DNA of 64,000 nt, from the IMG/VR virus record IMGVR_UViG_3300027963_000058, positions 27,015-91,014 of that record, one strand, 5' to 3'. The DNA comes from a virus. Shown in pieces: positions 11,995 through 47,040 of the stretch (position 1 is its first letter; each line of letters starts with the position of its first letter). The notes below the pieces were generated by a model that saw nothing but the letters and a program-made list of their open reading frames with translations, did no database searches and had not been told where the DNA came from. The position numbers and the translations under genes are program-made.

Positions 11995-12346
11995 TACTAC
12001 AAAAAACTTTTGGCAGGCGTTCCAGGACTGGCAGGCTACACCTGTGGAATACAAGCCACCCATTCAACGACTCTATTACGATGACAACGGCATGCCATTA
12101 TTTTACGTGGATCAAGATCTTCCAGGTAATTATATTGATCTAGATGGTGCCAGTTACGTTGTAGCAGACATGAATATCCGTGTTGTTGACGGTAAAATTG
12201 TAAAAATTAAACAGCCTGTTTATATAAAAAAATTAATGCCTGATTTGGAATCGGGCACATGTTGCCATCCTGATACTGTATGCATAGTAGTCGATGACAC
12301 TGAACCTTGTACCAAATGGAATTTAAAAACTTATGAAAAAAATTGA
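11987..12346 (+). CDS. Conserved phage hypothetical protein
   Basis: 119 residues starting at ATG 11987 (8-bp overlap with the gene before). The FWQAF N-terminal region and RLYYDDNGMP segment are recognisable from a small family in cyanophage-like genomes. Three Cys residues near the end (CCHPDTVC) might bind metal or form disulfides. Function unknown. Confidence 0.65.
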   Translation: MDDTTKNFWQAFQDWQATPVEYKPPIQRLYYDDNGMPLFYVDQDLPGNYIDLDGASYVVADMNIRVVDGKIVKIKQPVYIKKLMPDLESGTCCHPDTVCIVVDDTEPCTKWNLKTYEKN

Positions 12347-13259
12347 CATAGCTGATCTAGATTGTATCTACCTAACATATGATGAACCCGAACGTGAAGA
12401 GTTCTGGGTCAAAATCCGTAACATGATTCCTTGGGCTCTCAGAGTTGATGGAGTTAAAGGATCGGATGCTGCACACAAGGCAGCTGCGGCCGCAAGTACC
12501 ACTGAACGTTTTGTTCTAATTGATGGTGACAACTTGCCAGAAGAAAAGTTTTTTAATCTCACTCTAGAGTTACCTGACGCCCAATGGGAAAGTGCTGTGT
12601 TTCGCTGGCGTGCCCGTAATCATGTCAATGGGCTTATGTACGGCAATGGTGGATTAAGTTCATGGACTAGAACATTTGCCAATGAAATGAAAACACACGA
12701 AGCCACGGATGGTCGTGTGGCTACCGAAGTAGAGTTTTGTTTTGATCCGTTATACTGGGCCATGCACGATTGTTATAGCACAACATACCCCAATGGATCA
12801 GCATTCCATGCTTGGCGTGCGGGCTTCAGAGAAGGAGTCAAAATGTGTCTCAATCAAGGAGCTCGACCAAGTCTTGCCGAGTTCAAGACACGAGTGCATC
12901 ATAGAAATCTAGATCATTTGACCATTTGGCACAACGTAGGACGTGACGTAGAACATGGCATCTGGGCAATAGCCGGCAGCAGAATGGGCACTTACATGAC
13001 CATGTTGACTGAATGGGATCATTGCCTGGTACAGGATTTTGATGCTCTTGCTGAAATATATAAAACGGTAGACGGACACAATCCTGAAATAATACTGGGT
13101 CGTGTGGCTGAAGACCTATACAAACAATTGGACTTGCCCATGACCGTGATAGACGCACAGGCCAGCAGGTTCTTTAAGCATCACTATCGTAGCAATTGGC
13201 ACAACCGCGGAGTCATGACACGTGAGATTGATGTGATTAGAAGTCAGGAAGGTTGGTAA
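12333..13259 (+). CDS. Glycosyltransferase-like protein, related to the C-terminus of the giant repeat protein
   Basis: 308 residues. LIDGDNLP near residue 70 is a likely GT-A metal/nucleotide-sugar site. The segment AFHAWRAGFREGVKM near residue 158 matches AWMAWRTAFRECVKL in the C-terminal domain of the 30135-34322 protein, so the two share a domain. Overlaps the previous gene by 14 bp and ends the first glycosyltransferase run. Substrate unknown. Confidence 0.55.
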   Translation: MKKIDIADLDCIYLTYDEPEREEFWVKIRNMIPWALRVDGVKGSDAAHKAAAAASTTERFVLIDGDNLPEEKFFNLTLELPDAQWESAVFRWRARNHVNGLMYGNGGLSSWTRTFANEMKTHEATDGRVATEVEFCFDPLYWAMHDCYSTTYPNGSAFHAWRAGFREGVKMCLNQGARPSLAEFKTRVHHRNLDHLTIWHNVGRDVEHGIWAIAGSRMGTYMTMLTEWDHCLVQDFDALAEIYKTVDGHNPEIILGRVAEDLYKQLDLPMTVIDAQASRFFKHHYRSNWHNRGVMTREIDVIRSQEGW

Positions 13260-20398: not shown

Positions 20399-21603
20399 AC
20401 ATTCCACATGATCAATTTTGTGTGTTGCCCTGGGTCAGTTTGGAAACCAGCCCAATTGGCACAGTGAGGCCATGCTGTCTGGCTGAAGAAGAAATTGTTG
20501 ATGACGCAGGTAACAAGTTTGATCTCAACACAGCAAACTTTAGCAACATACAAACCAGCCAGTACATGCAGGATCTAAGACAACAGTTTTTAGACCAAAA
20601 GAAACCAGCCGCTTGCAGAAAATGCTGGCGAGAAGAATCAGCCGGTCGTACTAGCAAACGTATGCATACTTTGGACAGACTCAAGCACATGATTACCGAT
20701 TCTGAATGGACTGCGGATGCCAAACCCTTGATGTTTTTGGATCTAAAACTAGGCAACATCTGCAATCTCAAATGTCGTATATGTGGCTCATGGAGTTCTA
20801 GTACCTTTGCCACCGAAGAACTAGCCGATCTGCCACCAGGAGAAGATCGCAAAAGTAATCATCACTACCATATGCTCAAGCAAGGAGCGTGGCCTAGAGA
20901 GAATCCCACGTTCTGGACTGAAATTGATCAGGTAGCGGATCAAATACAGTACATAGAATTTACCGGTGGTGAGCCATTCATGATCAAGGAACACTTTGAT
21001 CTGTTACAAGGTCTAGTCGATCGAGGTCTAGCCGGGCAGATTGAAATACATTATAACACCAATGGCACGCAATGGCCCGAACACGCAGAGGCAATCTGGA
21101 AACATTTTAAAACTGTGGAAATAGCATTCAGTATTGATGATGTGGGCGATAGATTTGAATATCAAAGATCAAATGCTGTATGGTCAGAAGTATGCGATAA
21201 CATTGAACGTTTTAGACAAATGCGCAATCGTAATCCACGCATCAGATTACAAGTATGCACCACAGTAAATGTGTTCAATGTTTACTACATAGAACAAGTG
21301 GCCAATTGGATCAACACACAAAGTTTTGATTTTGTGTACTGGAACATGATGCACGAAGCCTACTACTTTAGCATCAGCACTTTGCCCGAATCAGCCAAAC
21401 AGTCAATTGCAACAAAATTACAATCTGCACAAGTTGATGCACGAACACAACATGAGTTTGCACAAATCATAGACTTCATGATGCGTGGTGTCAGCCTAGA
21501 TGGCAACATATTGCGTATGCGTGTAGCAGATCTTGATCGCAAACGCAATCAAAATTTAACACAGGTGCAACCTGAACTGGCTGCCTTGATCGACTATGCG
21601 TAA
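20395..21603 (+). CDS. Twitch-type radical SAM enzyme
   Basis: 402 residues, ATGA-coupled to the previous gene. N-terminal FCVLPWVSLETSPIGTVRPCC (9-29) and CRKCWREE (near 79) are the auxiliary cysteine region; CNLKCRIC at 123-130 is the SAM cluster site and TGGEP near 190 the SAM-binding strand. The same order occurs in the 18746 and 22608 proteins. Third of three consecutive radical SAM genes. Confidence 0.8.
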   Translation: MNIPHDQFCVLPWVSLETSPIGTVRPCCLAEEEIVDDAGNKFDLNTANFSNIQTSQYMQDLRQQFLDQKKPAACRKCWREESAGRTSKRMHTLDRLKHMITDSEWTADAKPLMFLDLKLGNICNLKCRICGSWSSSTFATEELADLPPGEDRKSNHHYHMLKQGAWPRENPTFWTEIDQVADQIQYIEFTGGEPFMIKEHFDLLQGLVDRGLAGQIEIHYNTNGTQWPEHAEAIWKHFKTVEIAFSIDDVGDRFEYQRSNAVWSEVCDNIERFRQMRNRNPRIRLQVCTTVNVFNVYYIEQVANWINTQSFDFVYWNMMHEAYYFSISTLPESAKQSIATKLQSAQVDARTQHEFAQIIDFMMRGVSLDGNILRMRVADLDRKRNQNLTQVQPELAALIDYA

Positions 21604-22615
21604 ACTGGTTTACATGTGGCTTCCTGGTCAAGCACCTGAATGGTTCCGTGACGCATTGCCAGAAAATTACCCAATAGAAATTTATGATCCAGCGAAAGAG
21701 TACGATCTAGACACCGTTTTTTATTATGACCTGTACGGATACTATCGCGAAAATATCAAGACTTATCTAGAGCGTGGACACCGAGTGATTCTTGACGCAA
21801 AAAATGAACATTATATTCAATATCGTTTTCATTGGATATTTTTATTGTTCTTGCAATACCCAGGACAAGGCATGATTTTGATCAGTGGCGATCGTGCCAA
21901 ACAGATCCCTGGACTCCAGATACAAGCCACTCCGTATTGGTACTGGATCATGGACCAACCTAGATTACAAGCAATAGGATTAGATCAGTATCACCCTGTT
22001 CCTACGCAAGAGAAAAAATTCTTCATGAGCCTGGGCAAGACTCGAATAGCTCGTGATTATCTGTACGACAGGCTTGGAGATCTCTTACAAGACAGCGTAC
22101 ACAGTTATTTGGGTCGCGGTAGGTACTTACCAAATGACCGAAAACAAGACGAGGTTATAGGAATAGGTTTTGATCGGTATGTAAACACCGACTGGTTAGA
22201 TGCAACTTGTTTTACCTTGGCTGTTGAAACTTATGTAGATGATTCTGATCTATCTGGATTTAGCCTGACTGAAAATGATGGTTTTTTCTTGTGCGAAAAA
22301 ACCTATAAGCCATTGGCTTGCAAGCATCCTTTGTTGATGGTTAGCACCCAGGGAAATTTATCACATCTACGCAATCAAGGGTTTGAATCATATCCTGAGC
22401 TATGGGACGAAAGTTATGATGATATTCCAGATTGGCAAACAAGAATAGATCGCATAATACAGATAGTGCATGACTTTGATCCGCGTACTCTTGATAATCC
22501 TGTGATTCAAGAAAAGCTATTGTATAATAGCGTAAGATTTTTTGATAAAGATTTAACAACACATTTATTAAATAGCACCGTAATCAATCCGTTACTGGAG
22601 TTTGTTAATGCTTGA
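21596..22615 (+). CDS. Exostosin-like glycosyltransferase family protein
   Basis: 339 residues overlapping the previous gene by 8 bp. The C-terminus has FFLCEKTYKPLACKHPLLMV and LRNQGFESYPELWDESYD, the family signature with the EK pair intact. The N-terminal half (MWLPGQAPEWF...) differs from its paralogues, as expected if the acceptor-binding half has diverged. It sits between two radical SAM genes. Confidence 0.6.
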   Translation: MRKLVYMWLPGQAPEWFRDALPENYPIEIYDPAKEYDLDTVFYYDLYGYYRENIKTYLERGHRVILDAKNEHYIQYRFHWIFLLFLQYPGQGMILISGDRAKQIPGLQIQATPYWYWIMDQPRLQAIGLDQYHPVPTQEKKFFMSLGKTRIARDYLYDRLGDLLQDSVHSYLGRGRYLPNDRKQDEVIGIGFDRYVNTDWLDATCFTLAVETYVDDSDLSGFSLTENDGFFLCEKTYKPLACKHPLLMVSTQGNLSHLRNQGFESYPELWDESYDDIPDWQTRIDRIIQIVHDFDPRTLDNPVIQEKLLYNSVRFFDKDLTTHLLNSTVINPLLEFVNA

Positions 22616-23900
22616 TTCACCTACCTTGTGCATGGCACCCTGGACTCATACGTACTTGAGTCCACAGACCGAACGCCGGCTGTGTTGTGCCAGTCGTGAA
22701 CCAGCACAGAACTTTGAACAGTATATAGATACCAGTTCCGGCACTGGCCGTTACATTCCCGTCACTCTAGATGACCACTGGAACAGCGAGCACATGCGGT
22801 CAGTACGCAAGAGAATGATGGCTGGAGAAACACTGCCCGAGTGTGATGTTTGTAACAGCAAACTGCTCAACACTGACGTGTATAGGAGTTACTTCAATAG
22901 CCTGTTTGGTCATAAGCGTGATCAGATTGAATTGACCACAGATGCCACAGGACATACTAGTATGTTACCAGTCAGCTGGGATTATAGATTCAGCAACCTT
23001 TGTAACTTTAAATGTCGCATGTGTGGTGACATGTTGTCAAGTGCTTGGGAAAGTGAACAACGACAGCATGACATGATTGATTGGACCAACACAAAAAACA
23101 GTTGGATGCGGCCAGAAGTCAAAGCTGAGATAACTCAATTCCAAGACACGCAGATTGAAGCCGAGTTTGCTCAAGCAGTAGAGCAACACAGGGTAGAAGA
23201 AATATACTGGGTAGGCGGAGAGCCACTCATGTATGAACAACACTGGCGCTATATGCGCAGAATTATTGAACTAGGAGATGGACAACGTGTTTACGCTAGA
23301 TATAATACTAATCTTAGCCGTGTCAACTACGGTAGTAGCAATCTGTATCGCGATATTTTATCTGGGCTACGAGACTGGCAGATCTGTGCAAGCCTTGACG
23401 GAACCGGACAGATTGGAGAATACATCCGTACAGGACTCGATTACCCTGCATGGCTTGCGAACTTTAAGCAAGGAGTACAAATAGCACGCCATTCAAGGCA
23501 GATGCGTATAGACTTTACGCTTACCTTACCTGGCATGTTTGAAGTGAAAAATATCACACGTCTAGCACAAGAATTACAGGTTGATATACTAGCCAAAGTG
23601 GTATTCTCATTCTCACCAGACATTGTGATGAGCCCCTTGGCCTTGCCAAGGACCATATTAGATCCTTGGCTAACGGAATTGATTGAGCAAACCTCAGGAG
23701 CCATGCAGTCCGTATTAACACAGTTACGATCGCGACCGACCTTTGAGGAACAATGGCCTGACACTTATCTAGCCGGTATCAAGAAAGGCAAAAAGAGAAT
23801 ATTGCAGCTTGAAAAAATCCGTAAAGACCTGTATACTATGAGTAATATCCTGGCATCGAGACCAGCTGTATTAGAATGGTGGAACCAAATTGACAATTAG
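22608..23900 (+). CDS. Twitch-type radical SAM enzyme
   Basis: 430 residues from ATG 22608 (a TTG lies 6 nt upstream). LCMAPWTHTYLSPQTERRLCC near the N-terminus and CDVCNSKLL near 80 are the auxiliary cysteine region; CNFKCRMC at 132-139 is the SAM cluster motif and VGGEP near 203 the glycine-rich strand. Fifth radical SAM gene of the run and clearly paralogous to the 20395 protein. Confidence 0.8.
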   Translation: MLDSPTLCMAPWTHTYLSPQTERRLCCASREPAQNFEQYIDTSSGTGRYIPVTLDDHWNSEHMRSVRKRMMAGETLPECDVCNSKLLNTDVYRSYFNSLFGHKRDQIELTTDATGHTSMLPVSWDYRFSNLCNFKCRMCGDMLSSAWESEQRQHDMIDWTNTKNSWMRPEVKAEITQFQDTQIEAEFAQAVEQHRVEEIYWVGGEPLMYEQHWRYMRRIIELGDGQRVYARYNTNLSRVNYGSSNLYRDILSGLRDWQICASLDGTGQIGEYIRTGLDYPAWLANFKQGVQIARHSRQMRIDFTLTLPGMFEVKNITRLAQELQVDILAKVVFSFSPDIVMSPLALPRTILDPWLTELIEQTSGAMQSVLTQLRSRPTFEEQWPDTYLAGIKKGKKRILQLEKIRKDLYTMSNILASRPAVLEWWNQIDN

Positions 23901-24975: not shown

Positions 24976-25073
24976 ACTGGATTAAAAACATAATTAACCG
25001 TATTCGACTAGAAATACGATACCGCAAGAAATTAAAAGAATTACGCAAACGAGATCCTTTTATCTATAAATGA
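24972..25073 (+). CDS. 33-residue basic microprotein
   Basis: ATG 24972 to TGA 25071-25073, linked by ATGA overlaps to both neighbours. It starts MNWIKNIINRIR and ends KRDPFIYK, with 13 Lys/Arg residues that would form an amphipathic helix. The tight coupling and the RDPFIYK end, which I recall from other phage microproteins, support a real gene. It could contact nucleic acid or membrane; unknown. Confidence 0.7.
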   Translation: MNWIKNIINRIRLEIRYRKKLKELRKRDPFIYK

Positions 25074-26554
25074 AATTGCAGAACATCCTTGGCATCAGTG
25101 CCGGGTTCCATGACGCAGCCGCCTCGGTAATCAACACCCGGGGTGAAATCTTGTTTGCTGGACATAGCGAACGCTATAGTAAAAAGAAAAACGATGCCGA
25201 CATACATCCGGGATTGCTGTGTGATCTTGGCCGATATGCAATTGATCATGTGGCCTATTACGAACGACCTTGGAACAAACAACTAAGACAACTATATTCA
25301 GGGCAAGGTATTGAATGGTCAAAACTAACCGTACGACAGATACTCAATCAGCAATTACACGGTTATTTTTCGCATACTACCGTCAGTTCGTACAACCATC
25401 ATTTGAGTCATGCCGCCGGGGGATTCCAAACTAGCACGTTTGATCGTGCCACAGTTGTGGTCATTGATGCCATAGGCGAATGGGACACTGTGAGCATATG
25501 GGGTGCTGAATATCGGAATGGCCAGGCAAGATATCGAAGACTTTGGCGACAACAGTATCCACACAGCATAGGACTATTTTATACTGCCATGACTGATAGG
25601 ATAGGACTTAGACCCATGGAAGATGAGTATGTACTAATGGGCATGGCGGCTTACGGCACTGATCGGTTGACCAAACATCTTGATGATCTAGTCATTGAAG
25701 ATTTAGACGAGATACAATTACGACAGAACTTCCATGCCGGAGTAGATGAAAACTTCTTGGCGTCAACTGAAAATGAAGATATTGCCACCGCAACACAGCA
25801 AGTAGCAGAAACTTTGATATATAGTATTATGCGCCGAGCAAGATCATTTGCCTGGAGCACAAATCTAGTATACTCGGGCGGGGTCGCCCTGAATTGTTTG
25901 GCTAATAGAAATCTTGGAGAGTATTTTGAAAAAATTTGGATCATGCCTTGTCCTGGTGATAGCGGCAGTAGTCTTGGTGCGGCCGCCTTGGCCTACGGGG
26001 GACGATTACAGTTCGACCATGCATACCTTGGTCACGACATCGGTGGACCATATCCTGTCAACGCCGTACTCCGTAGTCTCTTGGATGATAGAATCTGTGG
26101 TGTGGCATCCGGCAAAGCAGAATTTGGTCCCCGGGCGCTGGGGAACAGGAGTCTCCTCGCCGACCCGCGAGGACCAGATATAAAGTATCTTGTAAATGCA
26201 ATCAAGCGTAGACAGCAATTTAGACCGTTTGCTCCAGTCATCTTAGAGGAGCATGTCGACGAGTATTTTTTTATGCCTAAAAATTGGGTCGACAGCAAGT
26301 ATATGCAGATCGTTGGGTATTGCAGGCATCCTGAATTATATCCTGCTATCACTCATCATGATGGCACCAGTCGCATACAGACTGTACCCAACGACGGTAG
26401 TGGAATAAGATCCTTATTAGAAGCGTGGTATGCGTCCACTGGCTGTCCCATGTTGCTAAACACCAGTCTCAACATCCGCGGAGAACCCATGGTAAACGAT
26501 CGTAGAGATGCTGATCGTTTTGAAGAATTGTATAACATTCACGTTTGGTCGTGA
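25070..26554 (+). CDS. NodU/TobZ-family carbamoyltransferase
   Basis: 494 residues, coupled by ATGA. The N-terminal GISAGFHDAAASV, HHLSHA near 109-115 and the GGVALNC strand near 270 mark the Kae1-like domain that forms carbamoyl-adenylate. GKAEFGPRALGNRS near 345-358 marks the C-terminal YrdC-like part. The family moves carbamoyl from carbamoyl phosphate, with ATP, to hydroxyl groups of sugars, antibiotics or hydroxymethyl-pyrimidines. It is slightly shorter than the usual 550-600 residues. The acceptor here could be a sugar made by this island or a modified base; the sequence does not decide. Confidence 0.85.
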   Translation: MKLQNILGISAGFHDAAASVINTRGEILFAGHSERYSKKKNDADIHPGLLCDLGRYAIDHVAYYERPWNKQLRQLYSGQGIEWSKLTVRQILNQQLHGYFSHTTVSSYNHHLSHAAGGFQTSTFDRATVVVIDAIGEWDTVSIWGAEYRNGQARYRRLWRQQYPHSIGLFYTAMTDRIGLRPMEDEYVLMGMAAYGTDRLTKHLDDLVIEDLDEIQLRQNFHAGVDENFLASTENEDIATATQQVAETLIYSIMRRARSFAWSTNLVYSGGVALNCLANRNLGEYFEKIWIMPCPGDSGSSLGAAALAYGGRLQFDHAYLGHDIGGPYPVNAVLRSLLDDRICGVASGKAEFGPRALGNRSLLADPRGPDIKYLVNAIKRRQQFRPFAPVILEEHVDEYFFMPKNWVDSKYMQIVGYCRHPELYPAITHHDGTSRIQTVPNDGSGIRSLLEAWYASTGCPMLLNTSLNIRGEPMVNDRRDADRFEELYNIHVWS

Positions 26555-27862: not shown

Positions 27863-29055
27863 TTTAGTCTTTCAAGTAAGTTATTTAATCGTGAAGATTT
27901 GTTGTGTGAAAATAATTGTTGATTGTGTATTAGGTCTTCTTGACACTGATCGAACAACTGTGCGATTCCTTGTTGTTGTGCTTTCATGATCGAATCAGTC
28001 AACTGGATCCAGCGTTGTGTATGATCTGGTTCAAGGTCATAGCTGTTGTCTAACACATGATCAAAAACTCGATAGCCCAAATCTCTCAAGGCCTGTAGGC
28101 TACCTACACCACCTGCAATAAAAAACATCTGACCGTGTTTGATAGGTTTAAATGTTTTTTCAGTAATGAACACTCCGCCGCTTTGATCTAGATCAAATTG
28201 ACTTTCCAGCACAATATGACAGTAAGCATCGGTAAAATATTTTGGTTCAATTAAAGCATGATTGTTACGCTGGTCTTGGGTGAGTTCATCGCTGAAGTAG
28301 GGTGCATGTGCAATAAACTTTGTGAGATACCATCGCAGTTGTCCAATGGTGTCAATTTCAATTGGATTGTCATTGGTACAGTTATCGTCGTCGGGTGTGT
28401 CATCGGGTGCTTCACAATAGCTCCAGTAGCTGTTGCTCAATATGTCTAGACGATTTAAATCAGCAACAGCAGAAGCTCTCCACCATTTGTGAATACGATT
28501 TAAACAAACAAATTCGCGTGATCTTTTATCTGTATGGATAGGGAATGGCGGAATTTGAATATTACGTTGATAATACCAAAACTCAAAGTCGTGGAATGTG
28601 ACAAATCCTTCTAGTTCATCTGCTTTGGAATTAGCACTGACAAATCTATAACACCCGGCAGGTAACTGGTGTTGCTCTACCAATTTATCAAGACGTTGTT
28701 TGATACGTGCAGGATTATCACCTTCGTGATAGAAGAACAAGACCTGGAGATTCCTATCACGCACAGCAGATTGCACAGTAACCGGTAATAGGTCAAAGTA
28801 ATCTATTTCAAAGTGAAAGAATCCTAAACAAATGGGATAAAATGAATTGGCTGGAAATTGTTCGACAGTAAAGGTATTGATCCGGATACCGTGCGATTCA
28901 CAATATTCCTGTATGCGTAACGGTGTGGTATAGGGCCAATGGTTGCCAAATTCTCTCCAACTCTGTGTGTATGGCTCGGCCTGATGACGAGCTAGAGCTG
29001 GATATATTTTTGTACGTATTACTGCATCAACCACAAAATTAAATTCTAAATTCAT
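27859..29055 (-). CDS. Exostosin-like glycosyltransferase family protein
   Basis: 398 residues. FITEKTFKPIKHGQMFFIAG near 300 and LRDLGYRVFDHVLDNSYD carry the family signature. The middle (SREFVCLNRIHKWWR) resembles the strand before the donor domain in its paralogues. Coupled by ATGA to the amidinotransferase gene and by a 17-bp overlap to the gene upstream. Confidence 0.6.
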   Translation of the reverse strand: MNLEFNFVVDAVIRTKIYPALARHQAEPYTQSWREFGNHWPYTTPLRIQEYCESHGIRINTFTVEQFPANSFYPICLGFFHFEIDYFDLLPVTVQSAVRDRNLQVLFFYHEGDNPARIKQRLDKLVEQHQLPAGCYRFVSANSKADELEGFVTFHDFEFWYYQRNIQIPPFPIHTDKRSREFVCLNRIHKWWRASAVADLNRLDILSNSYWSYCEAPDDTPDDDNCTNDNPIEIDTIGQLRWYLTKFIAHAPYFSDELTQDQRNNHALIEPKYFTDAYCHIVLESQFDLDQSGGVFITEKTFKPIKHGQMFFIAGGVGSLQALRDLGYRVFDHVLDNSYDLEPDHTQRWIQLTDSIMKAQQQGIAQLFDQCQEDLIHNQQLFSHNKSSRLNNLLERLK

Positions 29056-30136
29056 CTAACATCTCCTGGAGTTCTTGCCATAATATAGATTCAAACCCAC
29101 CACGATAAAAATGGTTATAGTTGTGTTCGACTATGGGCAAACAGGCCTGGTGTATGTCATTGCGTTCCGCTACAGATAAATTATCAAGATCTTTTAATAG
29201 TCGAGTTACTGCTTCAATTCTTTTCACATCGTCAGTTTCTAGATCGTAACTTTCGTCAAAGATTTCATCAAAGGTCTGGAATCCATATTCGCGTAGGTAG
29301 GCCAATGATCCTGCTGGAGCTACCAGTACAAATGGCATTTCTAATGCTATAGCTTTGAATGTTTTTTCTGTGATGTGTAATCGATCGCCAAAGTAAACAG
29401 TTTCAGTAGGAACGTAGATCAAACTGTCTGCGGCTTCCTCATAGTTCCCTAGCCAACAACTGGTCATGATTTGAGTGTCTTCGCCAGCAAACAGTTTAGG
29501 TAGGTCAGCCTGCTCAAACACTTGCATTATGTCGGGATATATGTTACAATACTTACTAGCCACCACACTGATGTCAACATTTTCGTAAGCACAAGTCCTA
29601 GGAGCTGTGATATGATTGTGATCAAGTTGGTTTTTAAATACATTATATAAAAATAACACACGATGATCACGCTTGCCAGCCACAATACGATTGGGACTCA
29701 TAAAAGTTCGAGTAGGCTTGCGATCTCCGGCCCGGTCGATCAGGTATGTTCGATCATATCCGCGGAACCAATCAAGACAGGCCCAGCCATGGAAGAAATA
29801 GTAGTGACTGGTCCAGCCATAGGTTCTACAAAGTTCTCGAACATATTCACCACGTTCACTGACAACAATGTGTCCAGATGGTGGGTTTGGCCAATTAATA
29901 TCCTGGTTGCGGTAAACAACATCTTTGAACAAAGATTCGTGCAAATCCAAATGAACAGGCTCTTGATCATGCAAGTACACATAGTCAGTTTCTACAATAT
30001 CGTCAGACCCTAGGTTAAATAAGTGATCGCAATCAGTATACCCAAATGGATCACAAAAAAATACACGAGTGCCTGGTCTCTGTTCCTTGAACCATGGCCA
30101 AATGGTATTGTTATAAATTTCATCTATTCTAATCAT
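29039..30136 (-). CDS. Exostosin-like glycosyltransferase family protein
   Basis: 365 residues. LHITEKTFKAIALEMPFVLV and LREYGFQTFDEIFDESYD near 250-295 carry the family signature; TRTFMSPNRIVAGKRDHRVLF precedes it as in paralogues. The start codon interlocks with that of the divergent giant gene: the two ATGs share the CATG at 30134-30137. First gene of a minus-strand operon running to 26843. Confidence 0.6.
   Translation of the reverse strand: MIRIDEIYNNTIWPWFKEQRPGTRVFFCDPFGYTDCDHLFNLGSDDIVETDYVYLHDQEPVHLDLHESLFKDVVYRNQDINWPNPPSGHIVVSERGEYVRELCRTYGWTSHYYFFHGWACLDWFRGYDRTYLIDRAGDRKPTRTFMSPNRIVAGKRDHRVLFLYNVFKNQLDHNHITAPRTCAYENVDISVVASKYCNIYPDIMQVFEQADLPKLFAGEDTQIMTSCWLGNYEEAADSLIYVPTETVYFGDRLHITEKTFKAIALEMPFVLVAPAGSLAYLREYGFQTFDEIFDESYDLETDDVKRIEAVTRLLKDLDNLSVAERNDIHQACLPIVEHNYNHFYRGGFESILWQELQEMLDEFRI
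30112..30119 (+). promoter_or_regulatory. Late-like TATAAATT upstream of the giant repeat gene
   Basis: TATAAATT matches the T4 late box at 7 of 8 positions and lies 15 nt before the ATG at 30135, inside the divergent gene. No Shine-Dalgarno follows. Confidence 0.3.
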
Positions 30137-33100
30137 GTTTGATATATTTTATTCTGGTATAAAACCCAATATGTTTGTTCATGAACGTGAAGCATTGGAT
30201 ATTGAACATGCTAAATCATTGTCACGCACTAGATATTTTTGGTGGATCACATACTTAGCGGACTATACAGGGTGGGATTTTTTATGGGAACCATCACCGT
30301 GGCAGGCTAACCAGCGGCATGCCTGGCTAGATCAATATCATGTTGACGCCGGTCTATACCTTGTTCCAACTGCGGGCTACAATGACACCCACTATCATAC
30401 TGATCAACGGGTACATAGATTACCCAATATTGATTTTTGGCATGTGCCAGTCTGGATTGATCCTGCAAGTATAAATTATAGATGGGCACCCAACTCCACA
30501 GATCCGCCTTACATCTATGAGTTTCCTGTAGAATGGGATTGGGACCGAGTAGGCGGGCCTGAATACCGAATACCCGGTGCCACTGAACGCAAATACGTGG
30601 ATGTGTTTGTTGCTTGTACACAGTCGGACCGAGGGAACTGGCAAGTACATGATGCAGTAGACAGCAACGATCCAGTGTTTAGATGGCATCCAAATCCGTT
30701 GGATCCTGCTATGATCTATGTGTTTGGCAATCAATGGTGGCCGGCTGAAGTTCGTGCCAGTGTAGAATATCATGTGCCTGGTGCCACAGTAAAAAAATAT
30801 ATGACGGATATCCGCACTGTGCGGTTACCGGACCCGGGCAAGTTCACATGTTTATATCCTTGTGAGTTTGATTGGTCATGGGAACCAGATCCGGGAGATC
30901 CGCCTTACATCTATGTGTTTGGTAATCAATGGTGGCCCGCAGAAAAAATGCCTACAGTTGAATATCATGCCGCAGGTGCTACTGAACGCAAGTTCATGGA
31001 TCAACCTGCAACCTTGCTTGGAGATCAAACAAATTGGCAAGTCTTGGCGGATGTAGACGCATTAAGCATAGATTATTCGTGGCAACCAGATCCAGGAGAT
31101 CCGCCTTACATCTACGAGTTTGCTACACAATGGCAACCCAATGGTGGTGCTAGATATGTGGTTCCAGGTGCCACTGAGGTCAAGTACATCGACATACAGC
31201 ATCACAGGATCGATGATCCAACGCATTGGCAAATTCCTGTTGAGATTGATGCTACTACCGTTGACACCAGTTGGCATCCAGATGCCACAGAACAACCTTA
31301 CATTTATGAATTTGCCACACAATGGCAACCCAACGGTGGTGCTAGATATGTGGTTCCTGGAGCCACTGAGGTCAAGTACATTGACATACAGCATACCAGG
31401 CTAGGTGATCCAATGCATTGGCAAATTCCCGCTGAAGTTGATGTGGCCACAGTTGACACCAGTTGGCATCCAGATGCCACAGAACAACCTTACATTTATG
31501 AATTTGCCACACAATGGCAACCCAACGGTGGTGCTGTATATCATGTGCCCGGCGCTACAGAACGCAAGTATGTTGCAATACAGCATGGTAGATTGCCCAA
31601 TGAACAGGCATTTAAAAAACTAGAATCGATACAAGGGTTTGATTACTCTTGGCATCCAGACAACACAGAACCACCTTACAATTATGTGTTTGGCAATCAG
31701 CACTGGCCAGGCACAGAAATGCCCACGGTTGTGTATGAAATGACAGGCGCTGAACAAACTAAGTTTGTCGACGGTCCTGTTGCTAAATTAGCCCGGTGCA
31801 TGGACCATTGGAAGCTGTGTGAAGATATCGATCAGGACGAATGGGATTGGACCTGGCGACCAAATCCTCAAGATCCTGCTTACATATATGTGTGGGGCAA
31901 TCAGTGGAACCCACCTGAGTTTAAAACCAGTGTCCAGTATACAGTTCCAGGCGCAACAGAAGTAAAGTACCAAGATCGTCGCACACGTAGACTACCACAA
32001 CCCAAATTGTTCAAGCATAACTTGACTGTGAGCATGTTTGACTACTCTTGGGAACCCAATCCTTTTGATCCTCCTATGACGTATGTGTTTGGAAATCAGT
32101 GGAACTCGGCTGTGCTTGAACCCACAGTGATTTATCCAGCCGGTGGAAACGAAATCAAATATGTTGACGATATTGTTGCTACTGTGGCGCAAGATATTGC
32201 CGCTTGGAAGTTGTTGGATAAGATTGAAGAGTTTGATTATTCATGGAGACCAGATCCCACTGACCCACCTTACATCTATGTGTTTGGGAACCAATGGCTT
32301 ACACCTGAGCAACGCCCAGCACTACAGTATCGAGTAGCAGGTGCAACAGACATCAAGTACATGGAATACCCACGAGCACGTCGACGTGGAGATAAATTAC
32401 GTTTTGTTCGACACTATCCTGTGACATTTGATTGGTCGTGGGAACCTGATCCAGGCAGTCCTCCTTACAATTATGTGTTTGGTAATCAGTATTATTCTGC
32501 AGAAGTCATGCCCACAGTAGAATATCATATGCCTGGGGCAACAGAACGCAAGTACATGGATATTGGTGCCGCATTGTTACCAAATCATGATAATTGTTGG
32601 CACACGATTGTTAATTGTGCATGGGATTATACTTGGCGGCCTGAACCTGGAAGTCCAGCTTACGTCTATGTGTTTGGCAACCAATGGTGGCCAGCAGAGA
32701 AAATGCCCACAGTAGAATATCATATGCCTGGCGCAACAGAACGCAAATATATGTCTGGACCAGTGGCTCAATTACCAGTAGACATGACCCAATGGCATGT
32801 GCCCGAGTATGTTGATATAACTGACATGGATTTTTCCTGGGTACCCGATCCAGGCGAACCACCTTACATTTATCAGTTTGCTACACAGCACCAAAAGACA
32901 GGTGGCCCACAATATCGAATGATAGGCGGCACTGAGTTCAAGTATGTGGATATGATGCGAGCCGAAGTCAAGCAAGAAGCCGCACCCATATTTGAAATCG
33001 ATCACCTGGATGGCAACGCTGGACAGATTGAAGGAGTCGTTCGCAAGGTACGCTACTTTGACAACTACCGAGATACACTAATAAGATTGGCTAAAAGCCT

Positions 33101-34322
33101 TGTTGGTGAGTATGAACATGTATGGATCTGTTCCAGCATCTGTGATTATACCAAGTTTGATTTTAGCTGGCATCCAGAAACATGGCAAAGCACAATGTTA
33201 CATGTGTTCGCTTCGGACAAAGAAAAGTTTGGTGATACATTTTACATGCATGTTCCTACCTTTGCTGAACGTGCTGAAAAGAAAGAGCTATTGGAATGGT
33301 ACAGTGTAAATTATGTGCCACGTAAGAGTGTGCCACGTAGACCTTTACCAGTGATCGAGCATGATTTTGACACACACGTTGAAGCCATTAAAACTGTTGA
33401 TTGGACTGGACCGTTGGCCATATTCTCTACCGGCCAACCTATAACCCAGATACCAACTGTTCCGTTATGGCGAGAACCGACTAAAACTATCGTGCCACTT
33501 AGTGCAGGTGCAAGCAAAGTGATCGTGCCAAAATCAGCAGTTCCTTATGTAAAGACACAGGCATACGATTATCCTTATATTGATCGTACACAAAGACACA
33601 TGTGTACGGATCAACCGTTGGACATAGTGTTTATTGACAATGGTGAACCCACCGCTGAACATAACTACAAACAGTTAAGTGAATCAGCCAGTCTTAGGTG
33701 GATAAATCGCATACATCGTAGCAGTGGCATCAATGGTCGTGTGGCAGCATATCGAGCTGCTGCTGAATTGAGTCAAACTCCGTGGTTCTTTGCTGTGTTT
33801 GCCAAATTACAAGTAGAAAAAAAGTTTGACTGGGCATGGCAACCAGATCGATTACAAGAACCCAAGCACTATATCTTTCATGCATACAATCCTATCACAG
33901 CACTGACTTACGGCCATCAGGCCATAATTGCTTACAATCGTGAATTGGTATTGACAAATACTGCACCAGGACTGGACTTTACACTTGATCAAGCACACGA
34001 AGTAGTTCCTGTGCTGTCGGGCGTAGCCATGTACAACGACTCAGCCTGGATGGCCTGGCGCACAGCCTTCAGAGAATGCGTTAAACTAAAACACAGTTTA
34101 CCCGATGTAGAAAACGAATACCGTCTCAGTCAGTGGTTATCAAACACCCGTACTTTCAGGAGTCTATTACAAAACAGCGAGTGGAGTGTGCGTGGCGCCG
34201 AAGACGCAGTTGAATACTACGAACAGGTCAATGGGGATTTTGTTGAGTTGAAAAAGAGCTACGACTGGGCCTGGTTGGCTAGCTATGCTTTTCTAAAGAG
34301 AAATCTAACACCTGATCAATAA
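30135..34322 (+). CDS. Giant aromatic-repeat protein with glycosyltransferase-like C-terminal domain
   Basis: 1395 residues. About residues 110-940 hold 13 tandem units of roughly 64-70 residues, each with the pattern W-x-P-[DN]-P-x-[DS]-P-P-Y-x-Y-x-F-x-[NT]-Q-W, then PGATE-x-KY; a looser 14th unit follows. The C-terminal about 250 residues (IVFIDNGEP..., AWMAWRTAFRECVKL) match the 12333 glycosyltransferase-like protein. There is no signal peptide or membrane segment. The repeats could form a scaffold or glycan-binding array attached to a transferase. I have met similar repeats only in phage sequences and know no function. It overlaps the convergent aminotransferase gene by 44 bp. Confidence 0.75.
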   Translation: MFDIFYSGIKPNMFVHEREALDIEHAKSLSRTRYFWWITYLADYTGWDFLWEPSPWQANQRHAWLDQYHVDAGLYLVPTAGYNDTHYHTDQRVHRLPNIDFWHVPVWIDPASINYRWAPNSTDPPYIYEFPVEWDWDRVGGPEYRIPGATERKYVDVFVACTQSDRGNWQVHDAVDSNDPVFRWHPNPLDPAMIYVFGNQWWPAEVRASVEYHVPGATVKKYMTDIRTVRLPDPGKFTCLYPCEFDWSWEPDPGDPPYIYVFGNQWWPAEKMPTVEYHAAGATERKFMDQPATLLGDQTNWQVLADVDALSIDYSWQPDPGDPPYIYEFATQWQPNGGARYVVPGATEVKYIDIQHHRIDDPTHWQIPVEIDATTVDTSWHPDATEQPYIYEFATQWQPNGGARYVVPGATEVKYIDIQHTRLGDPMHWQIPAEVDVATVDTSWHPDATEQPYIYEFATQWQPNGGAVYHVPGATERKYVAIQHGRLPNEQAFKKLESIQGFDYSWHPDNTEPPYNYVFGNQHWPGTEMPTVVYEMTGAEQTKFVDGPVAKLARCMDHWKLCEDIDQDEWDWTWRPNPQDPAYIYVWGNQWNPPEFKTSVQYTVPGATEVKYQDRRTRRLPQPKLFKHNLTVSMFDYSWEPNPFDPPMTYVFGNQWNSAVLEPTVIYPAGGNEIKYVDDIVATVAQDIAAWKLLDKIEEFDYSWRPDPTDPPYIYVFGNQWLTPEQRPALQYRVAGATDIKYMEYPRARRRGDKLRFVRHYPVTFDWSWEPDPGSPPYNYVFGNQYYSAEVMPTVEYHMPGATERKYMDIGAALLPNHDNCWHTIVNCAWDYTWRPEPGSPAYVYVFGNQWWPAEKMPTVEYHMPGATERKYMSGPVAQLPVDMTQWHVPEYVDITDMDFSWVPDPGEPPYIYQFATQHQKTGGPQYRMIGGTEFKYVDMMRAEVKQEAAPIFEIDHLDGNAGQIEGVVRKVRYFDNYRDTLIRLAKSLVGEYEHVWICSSICDYTKFDFSWHPETWQSTMLHVFASDKEKFGDTFYMHVPTFAERAEKKELLEWYSVNYVPRKSVPRRPLPVIEHDFDTHVEAIKTVDWTGPLAIFSTGQPITQIPTVPLWREPTKTIVPLSAGASKVIVPKSAVPYVKTQAYDYPYIDRTQRHMCTDQPLDIVFIDNGEPTAEHNYKQLSESASLRWINRIHRSSGINGRVAAYRAAAELSQTPWFFAVFAKLQVEKKFDWAWQPDRLQEPKHYIFHAYNPITALTYGHQAIIAYNRELVLTNTAPGLDFTLDQAHEVVPVLSGVAMYNDSAWMAWRTAFRECVKLKHSLPDVENEYRLSQWLSNTRTFRSLLQNSEWSVRGAEDAVEYYEQVNGDFVELKKSYDWAWLASYAFLKRNLTPDQ
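30477..32960 (+). repeat. 13 tandem coding repeats (about 64-70 codons)
   Basis: Successive units start near 30477, 30675, 30885, 31080, 31272, 31464, 31650, 31854, 32046, 32244, 32439, 32637 and 32841. Units are diverged except for 31261-31343 and 31453-31535, which are identical over 83 bp (period 192 bp), a sign of recent duplication. Confidence 0.85.
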
Positions 34323-35391
34323 CGTATTCTACTTCTAGATCAGTCAGCTCAGGATATAGCGGCAGGCTCAAACAGCGACGACTTAAAGCACTAGATCCTG
34401 ACAGGATATCTGGTCCAGGACATTTCTGATACACTGGCATTTCGTGCAAGGGCTGAGCATAATGAATGCGTGTTTCAATTTTGTGTAGATCAAGATGTTG
34501 CTTGAGCATATCTCTACAGTCCGCATCAACTACAAATTTATGATAGGCATGTGTGCTGTAGTTGGTTTCGTCTATGAGACTGCGTATGCCAGAACCTTTG
34601 AGTCGATCCATCCAGTAACGCACTATCACACTACGCCGCTTCTGCCATGCATCAATGTAGCGACTTTTAACCAGCATCTGGGCACAATCTATTTCACTCA
34701 TCCTGCTATTGCTACCAGTCAGTCCATGATCGGGCTTGCCATTGTCTCGCCACCCACGTGCAAACTCTAACAGATTTAAATTGTCAGTTACTACAGCACC
34801 GCCATTGCCATAGTTGCCAAGATTCTTCATAGGGTCAAAGCTAAGAGCCGCGGCCAATCCTGTGCGGTTGCCGTTGTCGCTCAGCCAATGTTGGGCCGCA
34901 TCTTCAACAACAGTGCCCATGCCTTTGAGATTTTTTACACGCCCACTAGACACACTTGAACCAAACATGCCAACCTGTACTATGATCTGGTAGCTGATAG
35001 TGTTATCAATTTTTTCATAATCGGCCATGCCGTGGAAATTGGTATCTAATAATACAACCTCGTATCCAGCTCTAGTGAAGGCATTGGCCGTGGCCGCATA
35101 GGTAAAGCTGGGGATTAGAGCTCTTGGTGGAACTGGTACAGGGTGGATATACTTGCGACCAAACTCGGCTATGATTTCTAAAGCCTGTGTGCCCGAGTGG
35201 CATGTGACAGCATACTTGACATGATTTCGGCGTGCCAACCAATTTTCAAACTCAGCTGTGTAATTGCCGTTCATGAGCTGGCCCGATCTTAATACTTCAT
35301 CGGTTGCATCAAGTATCTCGTTACGGATCGTGCTATACTGTTTTTTTATTCCGGTAAAAGGAATTGTTAAGCCACTGGAAGTAATTTTCAA
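34279..35391 (-). CDS. DegT/DnrJ/EryC1-family sugar aminotransferase
   Basis: 370 residues from a TTG at 35391; longer reading from TTG 35427 is possible, but the family usually begins just before a motif like IPFTGIKKQY. FDPMKNLGNYGNGGAV contains the Lys expected to bind PLP, and VEDAAQHWL precedes it. The family aminates nucleotide-linked keto-sugars. With the adjoining epimerase it could supply an amino sugar to the glycosyltransferases. It overlaps the epimerase gene by 59 bp. Confidence 0.85.
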   Translation of the reverse strand: MKITSSGLTIPFTGIKKQYSTIRNEILDATDEVLRSGQLMNGNYTAEFENWLARRNHVKYAVTCHSGTQALEIIAEFGRKYIHPVPVPPRALIPSFTYAATANAFTRAGYEVVLLDTNFHGMADYEKIDNTISYQIIVQVGMFGSSVSSGRVKNLKGMGTVVEDAAQHWLSDNGNRTGLAAALSFDPMKNLGNYGNGGAVVTDNLNLLEFARGWRDNGKPDHGLTGSNSRMSEIDCAQMLVKSRYIDAWQKRRSVIVRYWMDRLKGSGIRSLIDETNYSTHAYHKFVVDADCRDMLKQHLDLHKIETRIHYAQPLHEMPVYQKCPGPDILSGSSALSRRCLSLPLYPELTDLEVEYVIDQVLDFSLEKHS

Positions 35392-36313
35392 ATCCTTTTT
35401 CGATGTCAATTGTGGGGTTGAAAGCAAAATCTTTTGTTGCTGCAGATATATTTAACTGCCCACGAACCGGGAACTCTCGATCTCGCGTGTTGATCTGTAT
35501 AGAACCAGTACCAGCAATGGCCACGGCTAACTCAGCCGCTTCCAGTAGTCCACGGCTTGTGCCTCGCGTGATATTATAAGTGCTATTACCAGCAAGTTCG
35601 CTTAAGGTGGCTTGCGTTATGCCTTGTGCTACATCATCCACATGTGTGAAATCCAAGTATTCATTGGATCCATTTACCTGTATCTCTCCGCCACGCATGG
35701 CTGCGAGAAGAAACCGTGATACCACACGATCTTCTACATCTCTTGGTCCGTATACTGCGCTGGGTCTCAATATAGTGTAGTCAGATCCAGTCCTGGCAGC
35801 ATAGTCTCGCACCAACCATTCGCCGGCCAATTTCATGATACCGTATTGTCCAATTGGACGACACTGAGCTGATTCATGTAGTCCACTAACATGTTCTTCT
35901 TTGAAATCACCATACACCATGCTTGAACTCACATAAACAAATCTTGACACCTGGTTCTCTTTGCAGGCTTCTAGTAGACTTAGTAGGCCTTCACTCATGG
36001 TTCTGCTACCTAGTGCTGGATTGCTATTGACCACTTTTTGTCTGGGGAAACTGGCAAGATGGATCACAGCTTCAGGTCGGTGAACTCGCATCATCCAGGT
36101 CATACTAGCTTGGTCAGCTACGTCGACCCGATAAATCCTGTCTGTTTTAATGTATTCTCTACGTTCTAGGATCAAGGATTCAAGTTCATCTCGAGGTACA
36201 ATACCATAGTCAGTTTGTGTATCTGTTATGAAGATTTCGTGTCCTTGTGCTTCTAACATGTGCACCACACGATGGCCTATAAAGCCAAGTCCTCCGGTTA
36301 CTAGTATTTTCAT
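35333..36313 (-). CDS. NAD-dependent nucleotide-sugar epimerase/dehydratase
   Basis: 326 residues. ILVTGGLGFIGHRVV is the GxxGxxG NAD-binding start of the extended SDR family, YVSSSMVYGD the serine strand and YGIMK the YxxxK catalytic pair. The start ATG 36313 is fixed by an ATGA overlap with the upstream gene. It likely converts a UDP- or dTDP-sugar that the next gene aminates. Confidence 0.85.
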   Translation of the reverse strand: MKILVTGGLGFIGHRVVHMLEAQGHEIFITDTQTDYGIVPRDELESLILERREYIKTDRIYRVDVADQASMTWMMRVHRPEAVIHLASFPRQKVVNSNPALGSRTMSEGLLSLLEACKENQVSRFVYVSSSMVYGDFKEEHVSGLHESAQCRPIGQYGIMKLAGEWLVRDYAARTGSDYTILRPSAVYGPRDVEDRVVSRFLLAAMRGGEIQVNGSNEYLDFTHVDDVAQGITQATLSELAGNSTYNITRGTSRGLLEAAELAVAIAGTGSIQINTRDREFPVRGQLNISAATKDFAFNPTIDIEKGFENYFQWLNNSFYRNKKTV

Positions 36314-36552
36314 TTGCCCCACTTTAGTTTAAGATATGTACAGTCCCGATCTTCAAGCTCGCCGACAATAGTAACACGAAAACCCCATGCACCAGGATCT
36401 GCGTTACAATGAAATATAGGTTCGCCTACAGCATGTTCCATGCACCACTTGCCGTGTTCGGTCTTTTGCCATTCACTGATGGGAAAGGCTGCGTATAGGT
36501 AAGGATCCTCGACATCGCCCATGGTAAACGTATGGAATGTAATTTTTTGCAT
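36310..36552 (-). CDS. Conserved phage protein with C-terminal KLKWGK
   Basis: 80 residues. KITFHTFTMGDVEDPYLYAA at the start and YLKLKWGK at the end recall a small family common in cyanophage-like genomes. Other small proteins in this window end in a similar [FY]-x-L-[KR]-[WF] motif (42754, 45075, 45296). Its ATG lies 7 nt from a -10 box, so it may be translated from a leaderless mRNA. Confidence 0.65.
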   Translation of the reverse strand: MQKITFHTFTMGDVEDPYLYAAFPISEWQKTEHGKWCMEHAVGEPIFHCNADPGAWGFRVTIVGELEDRDCTYLKLKWGK

Positions 36553-40663: not shown

Positions 40664-41055
40664 TTTGTTTCCTTTGCTAGTTGTCGATATCCTGTTGCAG
40701 TTGGATGCACACGATCTGGACTGAGTTGCGTGATAGGCAACACAGTATCACCCCAATCAAGTGCTATCTGTCGTATTAATTGTTGCATAGACACATTGTT
40801 GGCTGGCAAGATCCAGAACACTCGATCTGAATGTGCATTGGCTCTGATAGCTCTAAGTTCCAGTTCGCTTTTGACTGCAGGTGAATCGTTTGATCCTAAA
40901 CTGATGATCACACTGTGAGCATTCAACTCCTGGCTACCCCATCGGCGATTCCATTGTGCTGATGTCCACCCATACCGTGCTATACCCAAGCATTCAGGTC
41001 GGTATTGGGCCACACCCTGCGCGATGCTGTCGCCTATGATGGCACATTCAATCAT
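40660..41055 (-). CDS. Compact SGNH-type hydrolase
   Basis: 131 residues. GDSIAQG at 8-14 gives the block I Ser, SLGSND near 52-57 the Gly/Asn oxyanion residues, and DRVHPTATGY near 114 the Asp-x-x-His pair. At 131 residues it is shorter than the usual 180-200 but keeps the catalytic set. It may remove an acyl group from a glycan or lipid. ATGA overlaps join it to both neighbours. Confidence 0.75.
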   Translation of the reverse strand: MIECAIIGDSIAQGVAQYRPECLGIARYGWTSAQWNRRWGSQELNAHSVIISLGSNDSPAVKSELELRAIRANAHSDRVFWILPANNVSMQQLIRQIALDWGDTVLPITQLSPDRVHPTATGYRQLAKETK

Positions 41056-42323
41056 GTGGTTTCCTTCTCATAATAAGCCCATTGTCCCCACGGTGGAACG
41101 ATTGTAGTGGTGCCATGTAATATCCACACGGTATCAGCATAGTTCTCATCACCCCAGGATCCAAATGGATATCCATCTGTGAATACTACTAGTCGCTTGG
41201 GTTCAATCTGTTCTTCCTTCAAGTAATCAAATATACAATCAAAGTCGGTACCACCGCCACCTTCAACTTCATAGTCTGCCATTGAGTCCAAGTTCTCGCT
41301 GTCGTATTGCACAGTATTATATACCCGGGTATCAAAGGTGCCCACGTGTATTTTATAACTCTGGAACTGTTCCATGATGCCTTGGGTTTCACTGATAAAG
41401 TCCCGCAACATGTTAGGGTCAATACTGCCGCTGGCATCAATCATGACAGCAATATCAATCAGTTCATCTGGCTTCTGCCCTGGCATTATGGCATCCATGT
41501 GCCAGCCCTTACGACCGGCTCGCATCCAGGTATAGTCACTTTTGAGAGTACTTTCCAATTGCATACGCAACAGTTCTCTCCAGCTCATTTTAGGTGCTGT
41601 TAGGTCTTGTAGGATCCGTTTGACTCCGGCTGGCAAGTTACCAGCACCGTCAGACGCCGCGGCAGCCGCCAACATGGCTTCTTTTATTTCGTCACGTACC
41701 TTGGCACGCTCTTCGGCTGACATCCGGGGTCGATTCCCGTTGCCATCTTTATCCCCACCACCATCAGTCTCATCATCACCATCCAGGTGCTCATCCAATA
41801 GCTTTTCGAGCAATTTATCAATATCAATCTTTTCAGCATTTTCATACAAGACGTCATAGATTTCTTCACTGCTCATGTCTTCATATTCGGGATTGTATAA
41901 ACAAGGAACCGACGTAATGAACTCGCCCACACGGTGTTTCTTCAAGTCGGCATTCACACAATAGTCATTGGCTATATTAAACAACTGTGGGTCTCTGTCA
42001 CCTCTACGGCCGAAGTGATCATAGACACAGTGTAACACTTCATGCCCAAACAAGAATTCCACTTCCTTGGGTTTAAGCATGTCCACAAATCTGCTGTTGT
42101 AATAAAAATTTCTTCCGTCTGTTGCGGCAGTAGGACACCATTCGTCGGCATTGACTAGTTTCAATCTAGTAGCCAGGTTGCCAAAGAAACTGGCACGGAG
42201 CAACATGCCCACACGGGCGGTCACCATTTTCTCACGCACAATTCGATCCAGCTTGGGATCCATTGGGCCCACCAAGTCTTTGAACTTGTCGGATTCTTGT
42301 TTATTCTGTGTACTAGTAGTCAT
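41052..42323 (-). CDS. VWA-domain protein with metallopeptidase-like N-terminal domain
   Basis: 423 residues. GHEVLHCVYDH holds an HExxH zinc motif at 94-98. An acidic Asp/Gly-rich linker (about 170-205) follows, then a VWA domain with MIDASGSID (near 292-301), the D-x-S-x-S metal-binding site, and FTDGYP near 385. This arrangement matches DUF2201-type proteins that work with MoxR-class ATPases; one is encoded at 45955. The related pair CobS/CobT explains why phage homologues are often labelled cobalt chelatase. Probable role: remodelling or metal insertion of an unknown target. First gene of a 14-gene operon. Confidence 0.8.
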   Translation of the reverse strand: MTTSTQNKQESDKFKDLVGPMDPKLDRIVREKMVTARVGMLLRASFFGNLATRLKLVNADEWCPTAATDGRNFYYNSRFVDMLKPKEVEFLFGHEVLHCVYDHFGRRGDRDPQLFNIANDYCVNADLKKHRVGEFITSVPCLYNPEYEDMSSEEIYDVLYENAEKIDIDKLLEKLLDEHLDGDDETDGGGDKDGNGNRPRMSAEERAKVRDEIKEAMLAAAAASDGAGNLPAGVKRILQDLTAPKMSWRELLRMQLESTLKSDYTWMRAGRKGWHMDAIMPGQKPDELIDIAVMIDASGSIDPNMLRDFISETQGIMEQFQSYKIHVGTFDTRVYNTVQYDSENLDSMADYEVEGGGGTDFDCIFDYLKEEQIEPKRLVVFTDGYPFGSWGDENYADTVWILHGTTTIVPPWGQWAYYEKETT

Positions 42324-43035: not shown

Positions 43036-43303
43036 ACTCGATAGTTCGGGATTTTAACTTGATTATGGTAAATTCTCTTGGATCTACCTGATGCCGTTGT
43101 CCATAGTAGTCAGGTTTGATTAGATAAACACCATTGGCATTTTCCAACCAAACTCGTTGGCTGTTGGCCAAGAATTCATCATGTACACCATATGGCATAC
43201 GTCCACCACCATCGGCTATTGAGCAGTTGGCTAGACACCAATAGGACCATTCTTGGCCAAACACTTTTTTACGGGTAGGATGCAGTTCGTAGTAGTAGTT
43301 CAT
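43022..43303 (-). CDS. Small phage hypothetical
   Basis: 93 residues. ATG 43303 overlaps the halogenase stop as ATGA and is preferred to the longer reading from 43330. It contains WSYWCLANCSIADGGGR, with two Cys and a Gly run. It resembles the short paralogue family only loosely. Function unknown. Confidence 0.6.
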   Translation of the reverse strand: MNYYYELHPTRKKVFGQEWSYWCLANCSIADGGGRMPYGVHDEFLANSQRVWLENANGVYLIKPDYYGQRHQVDPREFTIIKLKSRTIEYEPG

Positions 43304-45954: not shown

Positions 45955-47040
45955 TTAGGCCGAAGCCTGTAAAATGTACTTGCCGTAACGCTGATGGAAC
46001 TCATCAAAGTTCTTGAGCTTGGTCGGCTGGAACGGTAGGTTGTATGTGGTAAGCGCAATCCTAGCACCCATCACAACCAGTTCAACTTCAAAGTTCTTCA
46101 TCATGTAAGCAAAGAAGTTGTCGCTCATGACATGGAACTCTTTGTCCGCGACCTTTTTCTCCACAGCGGCCTTGAGTTCATAGCACATACCAATCACCAA
46201 ACTGTACATGGCACTGACTTCTTTGACATCCAAAGTATCAACCTTGCCGCTCAAGATGTCGGCTGGGTTAGGCATGCGTCCAGCAATCTTGCGGTGAGCC
46301 ATAAACTTCACAGCCAAACCTTCGCCTACGGTACCAGCGATCAAGTTCATGTTGGTGTCGTCATCGGTGTCATCATCTTGCAATAGTTCGCTCACAAAGT
46401 GCCACGATCTTGGTGTAGCAAAGGCACGGCTTGCTGACTTGGCATCAAAATCATACAAATCTTGCTTGGCAAAGGTCAAGTAACCGACCACGTCCTTGTG
46501 CTCGTTGTTCTTGACTGCCCACTCCTGCCAACTAGCGAAATCACACTTCATCTCTTGGTGTACAAAACGATTGGCAAGCGGAGTAGGCATACGGTATGTG
46601 ACGCCCTTGTCGCTTTCACGATTACCTGCGGCAACTAGAACTACATTCTTGGGCAAATGATACTTGCCCACACGGCGATTCAATATAAGCTGGTAAGCCG
46701 CGGCCTGTACGCTGGGTGCAGCCGAGTTCATCTCGTCCAAGAATAATACTACTACTGGATACTGGCTGGCAAATTCCTCAGTTGGTAAATCCACTGGCTC
46801 AGCCCAATCCATCTTGCCCGAGTCCTTGTTGTAAAAAGGAATACCACGGATGTCTGTGGGCTCCATCTGACCCAGTCTAAGGTCGATCATGTATCCACCC
46901 ATTTCCTCAGTGAGCTCGGCTACCAACTCACTCTTACCGATACCAGGAGGGCCCCATAAAAATACTGGGCGTTGGATCTTGAATGCCTTCATCAGGCTAC
47001 GACGGGCTTGTATTGCGGTTACTGTTCTTGTTTCTGACAT
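45955..47040 (-). CDS. MoxR/CobS-type AAA+ ATPase
   Basis: 361 residues. GPPGIGKSE at 30-38 is Walker A, VVVLFLDE at 96-103 Walker B, and a GNRESD sensor-like motif lies near 142. The sequence TYRMPTPLANRFVH matches the sensor and arginine-finger region of MoxR proteins. Members power VWA-domain partners; the likely partner is the 41052-42323 product. Phage members are often named cobS, but chelatase activity is unproven. First gene of the operon down to 42754. Confidence 0.85.
   Translation of the reverse strand: MSETRTVTAIQARRSLMKAFKIQRPVFLWGPPGIGKSELVAELTEEMGGYMIDLRLGQMEPTDIRGIPFYNKDSGKMDWAEPVDLPTEEFASQYPVVVLFLDEMNSAAPSVQAAAYQLILNRRVGKYHLPKNVVLVAAGNRESDKGVTYRMPTPLANRFVHQEMKCDFASWQEWAVKNNEHKDVVGYLTFAKQDLYDFDAKSASRAFATPRSWHFVSELLQDDDTDDDTNMNLIAGTVGEGLAVKFMAHRKIAGRMPNPADILSGKVDTLDVKEVSAMYSLVIGMCYELKAAVEKKVADKEFHVMSDNFFAYMMKNFEVELVVMGARIALTTYNLPFQPTKLKNFDEFHQRYGKYILQASA

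Follow-up and report, generated by a model that had tools for sequence, protein, structure and literature searches.

We analysed a 64-kb window of the 91-kb IMG/VR viral record IMGVR_UViG_3300027963_000058, in which a large repeat protein is encoded by a plus-strand gene flanked on both sides by minus-strand genes. The protein, its parts and the genes around it lie at the following window positions:

12333..13259, plus strand: separate homologous GT-A-like protein, 308 aa, with an invariant DGDN at aa 64-67 (the 12333 protein)
29039..30136, minus strand: head-to-head partner, 365 aa, whose start codon overlaps that of the repeat gene by two bases in a CATG at 30134-30137
30135..34322, plus strand: whole repeat protein, 1395 aa, ATG start, open reading frame without stops
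30135..30467, plus strand: N-terminal module, aa 1-111, a beta-alpha-beta start and then a degenerate unit-like segment, WDFLWEPSPWQ...GLYLVP; without DxD
30471..33005, plus strand: 13-unit array (60-66 aa per unit), aa 113-957, placed by unit-profile matches
30471, 30672, 30867, 31068, 31260, 31452, 31638, plus strand: first bases of units 1-7
31842, 32037, 32232, 32427, 32622, 32826, plus strand: first bases of units 8-13
33006..33359, plus strand: middle module, about aa 958-1075, VWICSSICDYTKFDFSWHPETWQ...LHVF...GDTFYMHVP; without DxD, beta-alpha-beta in the model
33360..33614, plus strand: third short module or linker, about aa 1076-1160, GPLAIFSTG...VPLWR...KTIVPLSAGASKVIVPK, with secondary structure in the model of the one-unit relative L147; we only conjecture that it is glycosyltransferase-like
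33618..34319, plus strand: C-terminal domain, aa 1162-1395 (234 aa), predicted to be GT-A-like from homology to the 12333 protein and fold searches
33798..33806, plus strand: F-A-K at the DxD position, aa 1222-1224, from alignment with the 12333 family
34279..35427, minus strand: DegT/DnrJ/EryC1 aminotransferase, the convergent neighbour (PF01041, E 3e-54)
35333..36322, minus strand: NAD-dependent epimerase/dehydratase (PF01370, E 6e-46)

This arrangement is shared by most relatives of the repeat protein: the partner gene was found in 70 of 71, the DegT aminotransferase near the gene in 70 of 71 and the epimerase in 65 of 71, while the CATG start overlap is present in 65 of the 72 family members. 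No obvious Shine-Dalgarno sequence is seen on either side of the overlap. The partner has no Pfam, PHROG or PDB family match, which leaves no basis in these data for giving it an enzymatic role. A TATAAAT resembling a T4 late promoter, 23 bases upstream of the repeat gene, was set aside, as it varies between relatives together with a tyrosine codon of the overlapping partner gene. A carbamoyltransferase (25070-26554, plus strand; PF02543/PF16861) lies upstream of the repeat gene in 45 of the 71 relatives. Elsewhere, the window encodes a 2259-aa protein (22-6801, plus strand) that matches FG-GAP and, weakly, CBM_5_12 and may be a fibre or adhesin; a cluster of radical SAM/SPASM proteins (13373-23900, plus strand; PF04055, PF13186); a tryptophan halogenase (43300-44877, minus strand; PF04820, E 9e-86), here in a phage; a VWA/DUF2201 metallopeptidase-like protein (41052-42323, minus strand) and a MoxR-like AAA ATPase (45955-47040, minus strand), which resemble a MoxR-VWA pair; and ten tRNA genes in small groups (51955-58524, minus strand).

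A preliminary description of this DNA had counted thirteen repeat units, and a unit profile indeed found 13 full units of about 65 aa. In a non-circular search, a single unit used as query recovered all of the other 12 (E 6e-25 to 2e-5), and the best of 500 shuffled proteins reached 9.9 bits, as against 20-82 bits for the real units. The consensus of 159 distinct units reads FDySWePDPgDPPYIYVFGNQWwpaEkmPtVeYhVPGATErKYMD...W, with W5, P7 and K42 essentially invariant and Y16 and Y33 present in 99% and 97% of units. Tryptophan makes up 5.0% of the array and proline 10.8%, compared with 2.1% and 4.4% in the other proteins of the window. The repetition is old at the DNA level, where a tandem repeat is still recognised only across units 4-6 (31104-31535, period 192). 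When the whole protein and members of the family were scanned against Pfam and PHROGs, only sub-threshold or scattered matches appeared; for the units themselves the best Pfam match was LAG1-DNAbind, below the cut-off (E 0.0026, over 24 residues), and PHROGs gave none. The repeat family is absent from both collections, and no match to a characterised repeat family, which would have counted against the preliminary description, was found.

A first scan of IMG/VR gave 29 loci, and a scan with the C-domain alignment extended this to at least 373 relatives, 80 of which were retained. Among 72 distinct complete proteins, that of the window included, the number of units between conserved ends ranged from 0 to 21: eight proteins had no unit, 12 had one, nine had two, six had three, seven had four, two had five, seven had six, two had seven, seven had eight, two had nine, three had ten, two had 11, three had 12, one had 13 and one had 21 (L170, the longest array, in a protein of 2047 aa). 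Since eight relatives have no unit at all, the core role of the protein does not require the array. We ruled out assembly collapse as the source of this variation, since mean identity between units is 42%, reading frames are intact and most adjacent units are very dissimilar. Clustering of 338 units showed that their order is conserved: the last unit is mostly of type B or C, the penultimate one is often A, and longer arrays run ...D-E-G-F-A-B, with growth or loss mostly at the N-terminal side. Duplications of a unit are few (V-V in the window protein, eight M in L170 and four U in L163). The genes are under purifying selection, with dN/dS of about 0.1 or below in most pairs for the whole gene, the units and the C domain alike, dS being near saturation in the distant pairs.

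The carriers are large T4-related phages, with contigs of up to 353 kb; a T4-type portal gene was found in six of the eight records searched, all six of them 320-353 kb in length. We take these phages to be of freshwater origin, from what we know of such metagenome records. No relatives of the repeat protein were found in GTDB genomes, so that nothing points to an origin in cells or prophages. A tblastn search of the named phages in INPHARED likewise gave no relatives, or matches at chance level. Two uncharacterised proteins of uncultured Caudovirales phages in BFVD belong to the same family, both longer than the 600-aa Foldseek query and matching it over the full length: A0A6J5LK21 (804 aa; E 6e-68, 34% identity) and A0A6J5L5L5 (1076 aa; E 4e-61, 26% identity).

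A C-terminal domain that also occurs as the 12333 protein had been proposed, and the kinship of the last 234 aa with that protein, whose lack would have counted against the description, is borne out by hhalign (probability 98.6%, E 1.2e-15, 204 columns). Each of the two profiles finds the other protein as the sole additional significant open reading frame in the window. Across ten related records the C-domain profile retrieved the 12333 protein without exception (E 8e-12 to 3e-16), and the 12333 profile recovered the big protein in six (E 1e-7 to 4e-10); both proteins are present in all ten records searched, that of the window included. Conserved features common to the two are EP, N-x-x-N-G-L-x-Y-G and W-R-x-x-F-R-E-x-x-K. 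At the same time, identity is about 25-29% and the DxD site differs, so that the two are homologous domains rather than copies of one protein. The 12333 family (440 relatives) has an invariant DGD (DGDN) at this site, and 10 of 30 members match Pfam Glyco_tranf_2_3 weakly (best E 0.012). In ungapped alignment with that DGDN, the big protein reads FAK in 65 and PAK in one of 66 readable relatives, the lysine being invariant. The DxD motif that marks canonical metal-dependent GT-A enzymes is absent from the repeat protein family, so that the protein, while homologous to the 12333 family over the domain, does not belong to the canonical metal-dependent transferases. Some relatives do contain pseudo-DxD strings, a few residues farther downstream (e.g. 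the DFD of FDW), and these were rejected as non-conserved and outside the aligned site.

Searches of PDB sequence profiles with the C domain, the 12333 family and the short-form family gave nothing meaningful. Foldseek searches with AlphaFold models of a one-unit relative (L147; pLDDT 83, pTM 0.66) and a nine-unit relative (L009; pLDDT 72, pTM 0.31) returned GT-A enzymes as nearly all top PDB matches and glycosyltransferases among viral models. The matches include chondroitin polymerase K4CP, lysyl hydroxylase LH3 with its GT domains, ArnC, RmlT and the capsid-glycosylating glycosyltransferase of PBCV-1, with probabilities of up to 1.00; among the PDB matches listed, TM-scores by target length do not exceed 0.41 and identities are 6-14%, and which module aligned is not given in the output. 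The predicted fold thus supports placing the repeat protein in the GT-A glycosyltransferase superfamily. The transferase-like end of the preliminary description gains support from this fold, from its DxD-bearing homologue and from the sugar genes of the neighbourhood; the low TM-scores weigh on the other side. With its pTM of 0.31, the L009 model does not fix the layout of the array; the units in that model are beta-rich with pLDDT of about 80-90. That the end domain acts on glycans, as had also been suggested, is now doubtful because all 66 readable relatives have F/P-A-K where DxD would stand, even though catalysis independent of metal could still take place there.

Beyond that description, the units turn out to be related to the transferase-like modules of the same protein, in addition to varying from 0 to 21 in number. 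The N-terminal and middle modules match each other with an hhalign probability of 97.7%, and the unit profile matches the N-terminal module at 91-93%, the middle module at 94% and, more weakly, the C domain at 67%; for each of the three modules, none of 100 column shuffles reached the observed score. The segment common to units and modules is F-D-x-S-W-x-P-[DE]...Y-I-x-x-F. In our inference a degenerate GT-A module supplied this segment as the source of the unit; copying in that direction is presumed. The architecture and ancestry of the repeat protein are well supported.

For its function, we tentatively favour, at somewhat less than even confidence, a non-catalytic scaffold derived from a glycosyltransferase, whose aromatic modules bind an acceptor or glycan and which works with the enzymes of the locus. 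Its absence of catalysis, the glycan binding by the repeats that the preliminary description had already suggested, its docking and the role of copy number are all inferred. In this view a GT-A glycosyltransferase first turned into several linked GT-A-like modules (N-terminal, middle and C-terminal) that had degenerated and lacked the metal/nucleotide-sugar motif; a strand-loop-strand piece with W-x-P, located after the former DxD position, would then have multiplied to give arrays of between 0 and 21 copies. As a scaffold in a phage sugar pathway, the protein may hold or bind sugar chains, with the aromatic modules holding a sugar acceptor or a growing glycan. Docking would fall to the conserved ends, with the divergent 29039 protein and the DxD-bearing 12333 protein as possible partners that could use sugars supplied by the DegT and epimerase enzymes. 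Valency or reach would depend on the number of units and be matched to the phage host or glycan. Possible, and in our view somewhat more doubtful, is the general form of this idea, in which a viral glycosyltransferase lineage lost its canonical metal site and turned an acceptor-side sub-module into an expandable glycan-binding array, copy number serving as a tunable gauge of valency or length.

The main rival to the scaffold is that the C domain is an active, metal-independent GT-A glycosyltransferase, in which the lysine of FAK and other invariant basic residues replace the metal and the units form an acceptor-binding arm. GT14 enzymes are active without DxD, with Arg/Lys on the beta-phosphate (PMC3961637), and therefore a missing DxD is no proof of missing catalysis; moreover, purifying selection is strong, the lysine does not vary, and the C domain keeps many of the features that it shares with the 12333 protein. 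We nevertheless consider an active enzyme unlikely, as the basic residues of GT14 lie near the C terminus rather than where DxD would be, DxD is also missing from the N-terminal and middle modules, and no catalytic base can be identified in the C domain. A little less probable still is a virion protein (a fibre, head decoration or adhesin) whose aromatic units bind host-surface glycans directly and whose unit number tracks host range. Repeat number does vary strongly between related phages, as it does in adhesive repeat proteins, and the units are rich in aromatic residues, but the gene sits between opposite-strand sugar-metabolism genes and not among recognised structural genes, the C domain is GT-A-like, and forms with no units would lack the adhesive part. 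Very improbable, finally, is an array that serves as substrate for a phage peptide- or side-chain-modifying enzyme (the radical SAM/SPASM proteins or the tryptophan halogenase of the window), with the units as repeated target sites: several such open reading frames are at hand and each unit offers an invariant W and a nearly invariant Y, yet these genes are 6-17 kb distant, within the flanks retrieved radical SAM relatives accompany only 6-9 of the 71 relatives, and the glycosyltransferase-related ancestry of the units accounts for W and Y without any modification.

With GT2-like GT-A enzymes, such as the PBCV-1 capsid glycosyltransferase (2p72/2p6w) and K4CP (2z86, two GT-A domains), the repeat protein shares its predicted fold, several GT-A-like modules per chain as in K4CP, a neighbourhood of sugar enzymes and a DxD-bearing homologue (12333); it differs from them in lacking DxD in every module and in carrying as many as 21 copies of a sub-domain piece. 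The metal-independent GT-A enzymes of GT14 and bacterial GT6 (PMC3961637) also have the fold without DxD, but we found no sequence relation to them, and catalytic residues are not identifiable in the repeat protein. Plant IRX9 is a glycosyltransferase-like protein with a structural role, its catalytic residues being dispensable (PMC4132061). Both it and the repeat protein are glycosyltransferase-like and thought to act with active partners, whereas no repeat array has been described for IRX9, and no sequence relation was found. The fold is known; our searches of open-licence papers turned up no description of a GT-A sub-module multiplied into an array of varying length, and the repeat family has no Pfam or PHROGs model.

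The repeat protein represents a widespread and functionally undescribed family of phage proteins, in which one alignable series, from 0 to 21 units, illustrates how a part of an enzyme-derived fold can become amplified into an array, with DxD absent. It marks a sugar-pathway locus that is fixed in a group of large phages, and candidate targets for the glycan are the virion, the DNA or the host surface. If the proposed origin is true, giant freshwater T4-like phages would show a new way in which an enzyme can give rise to a repeat protein.
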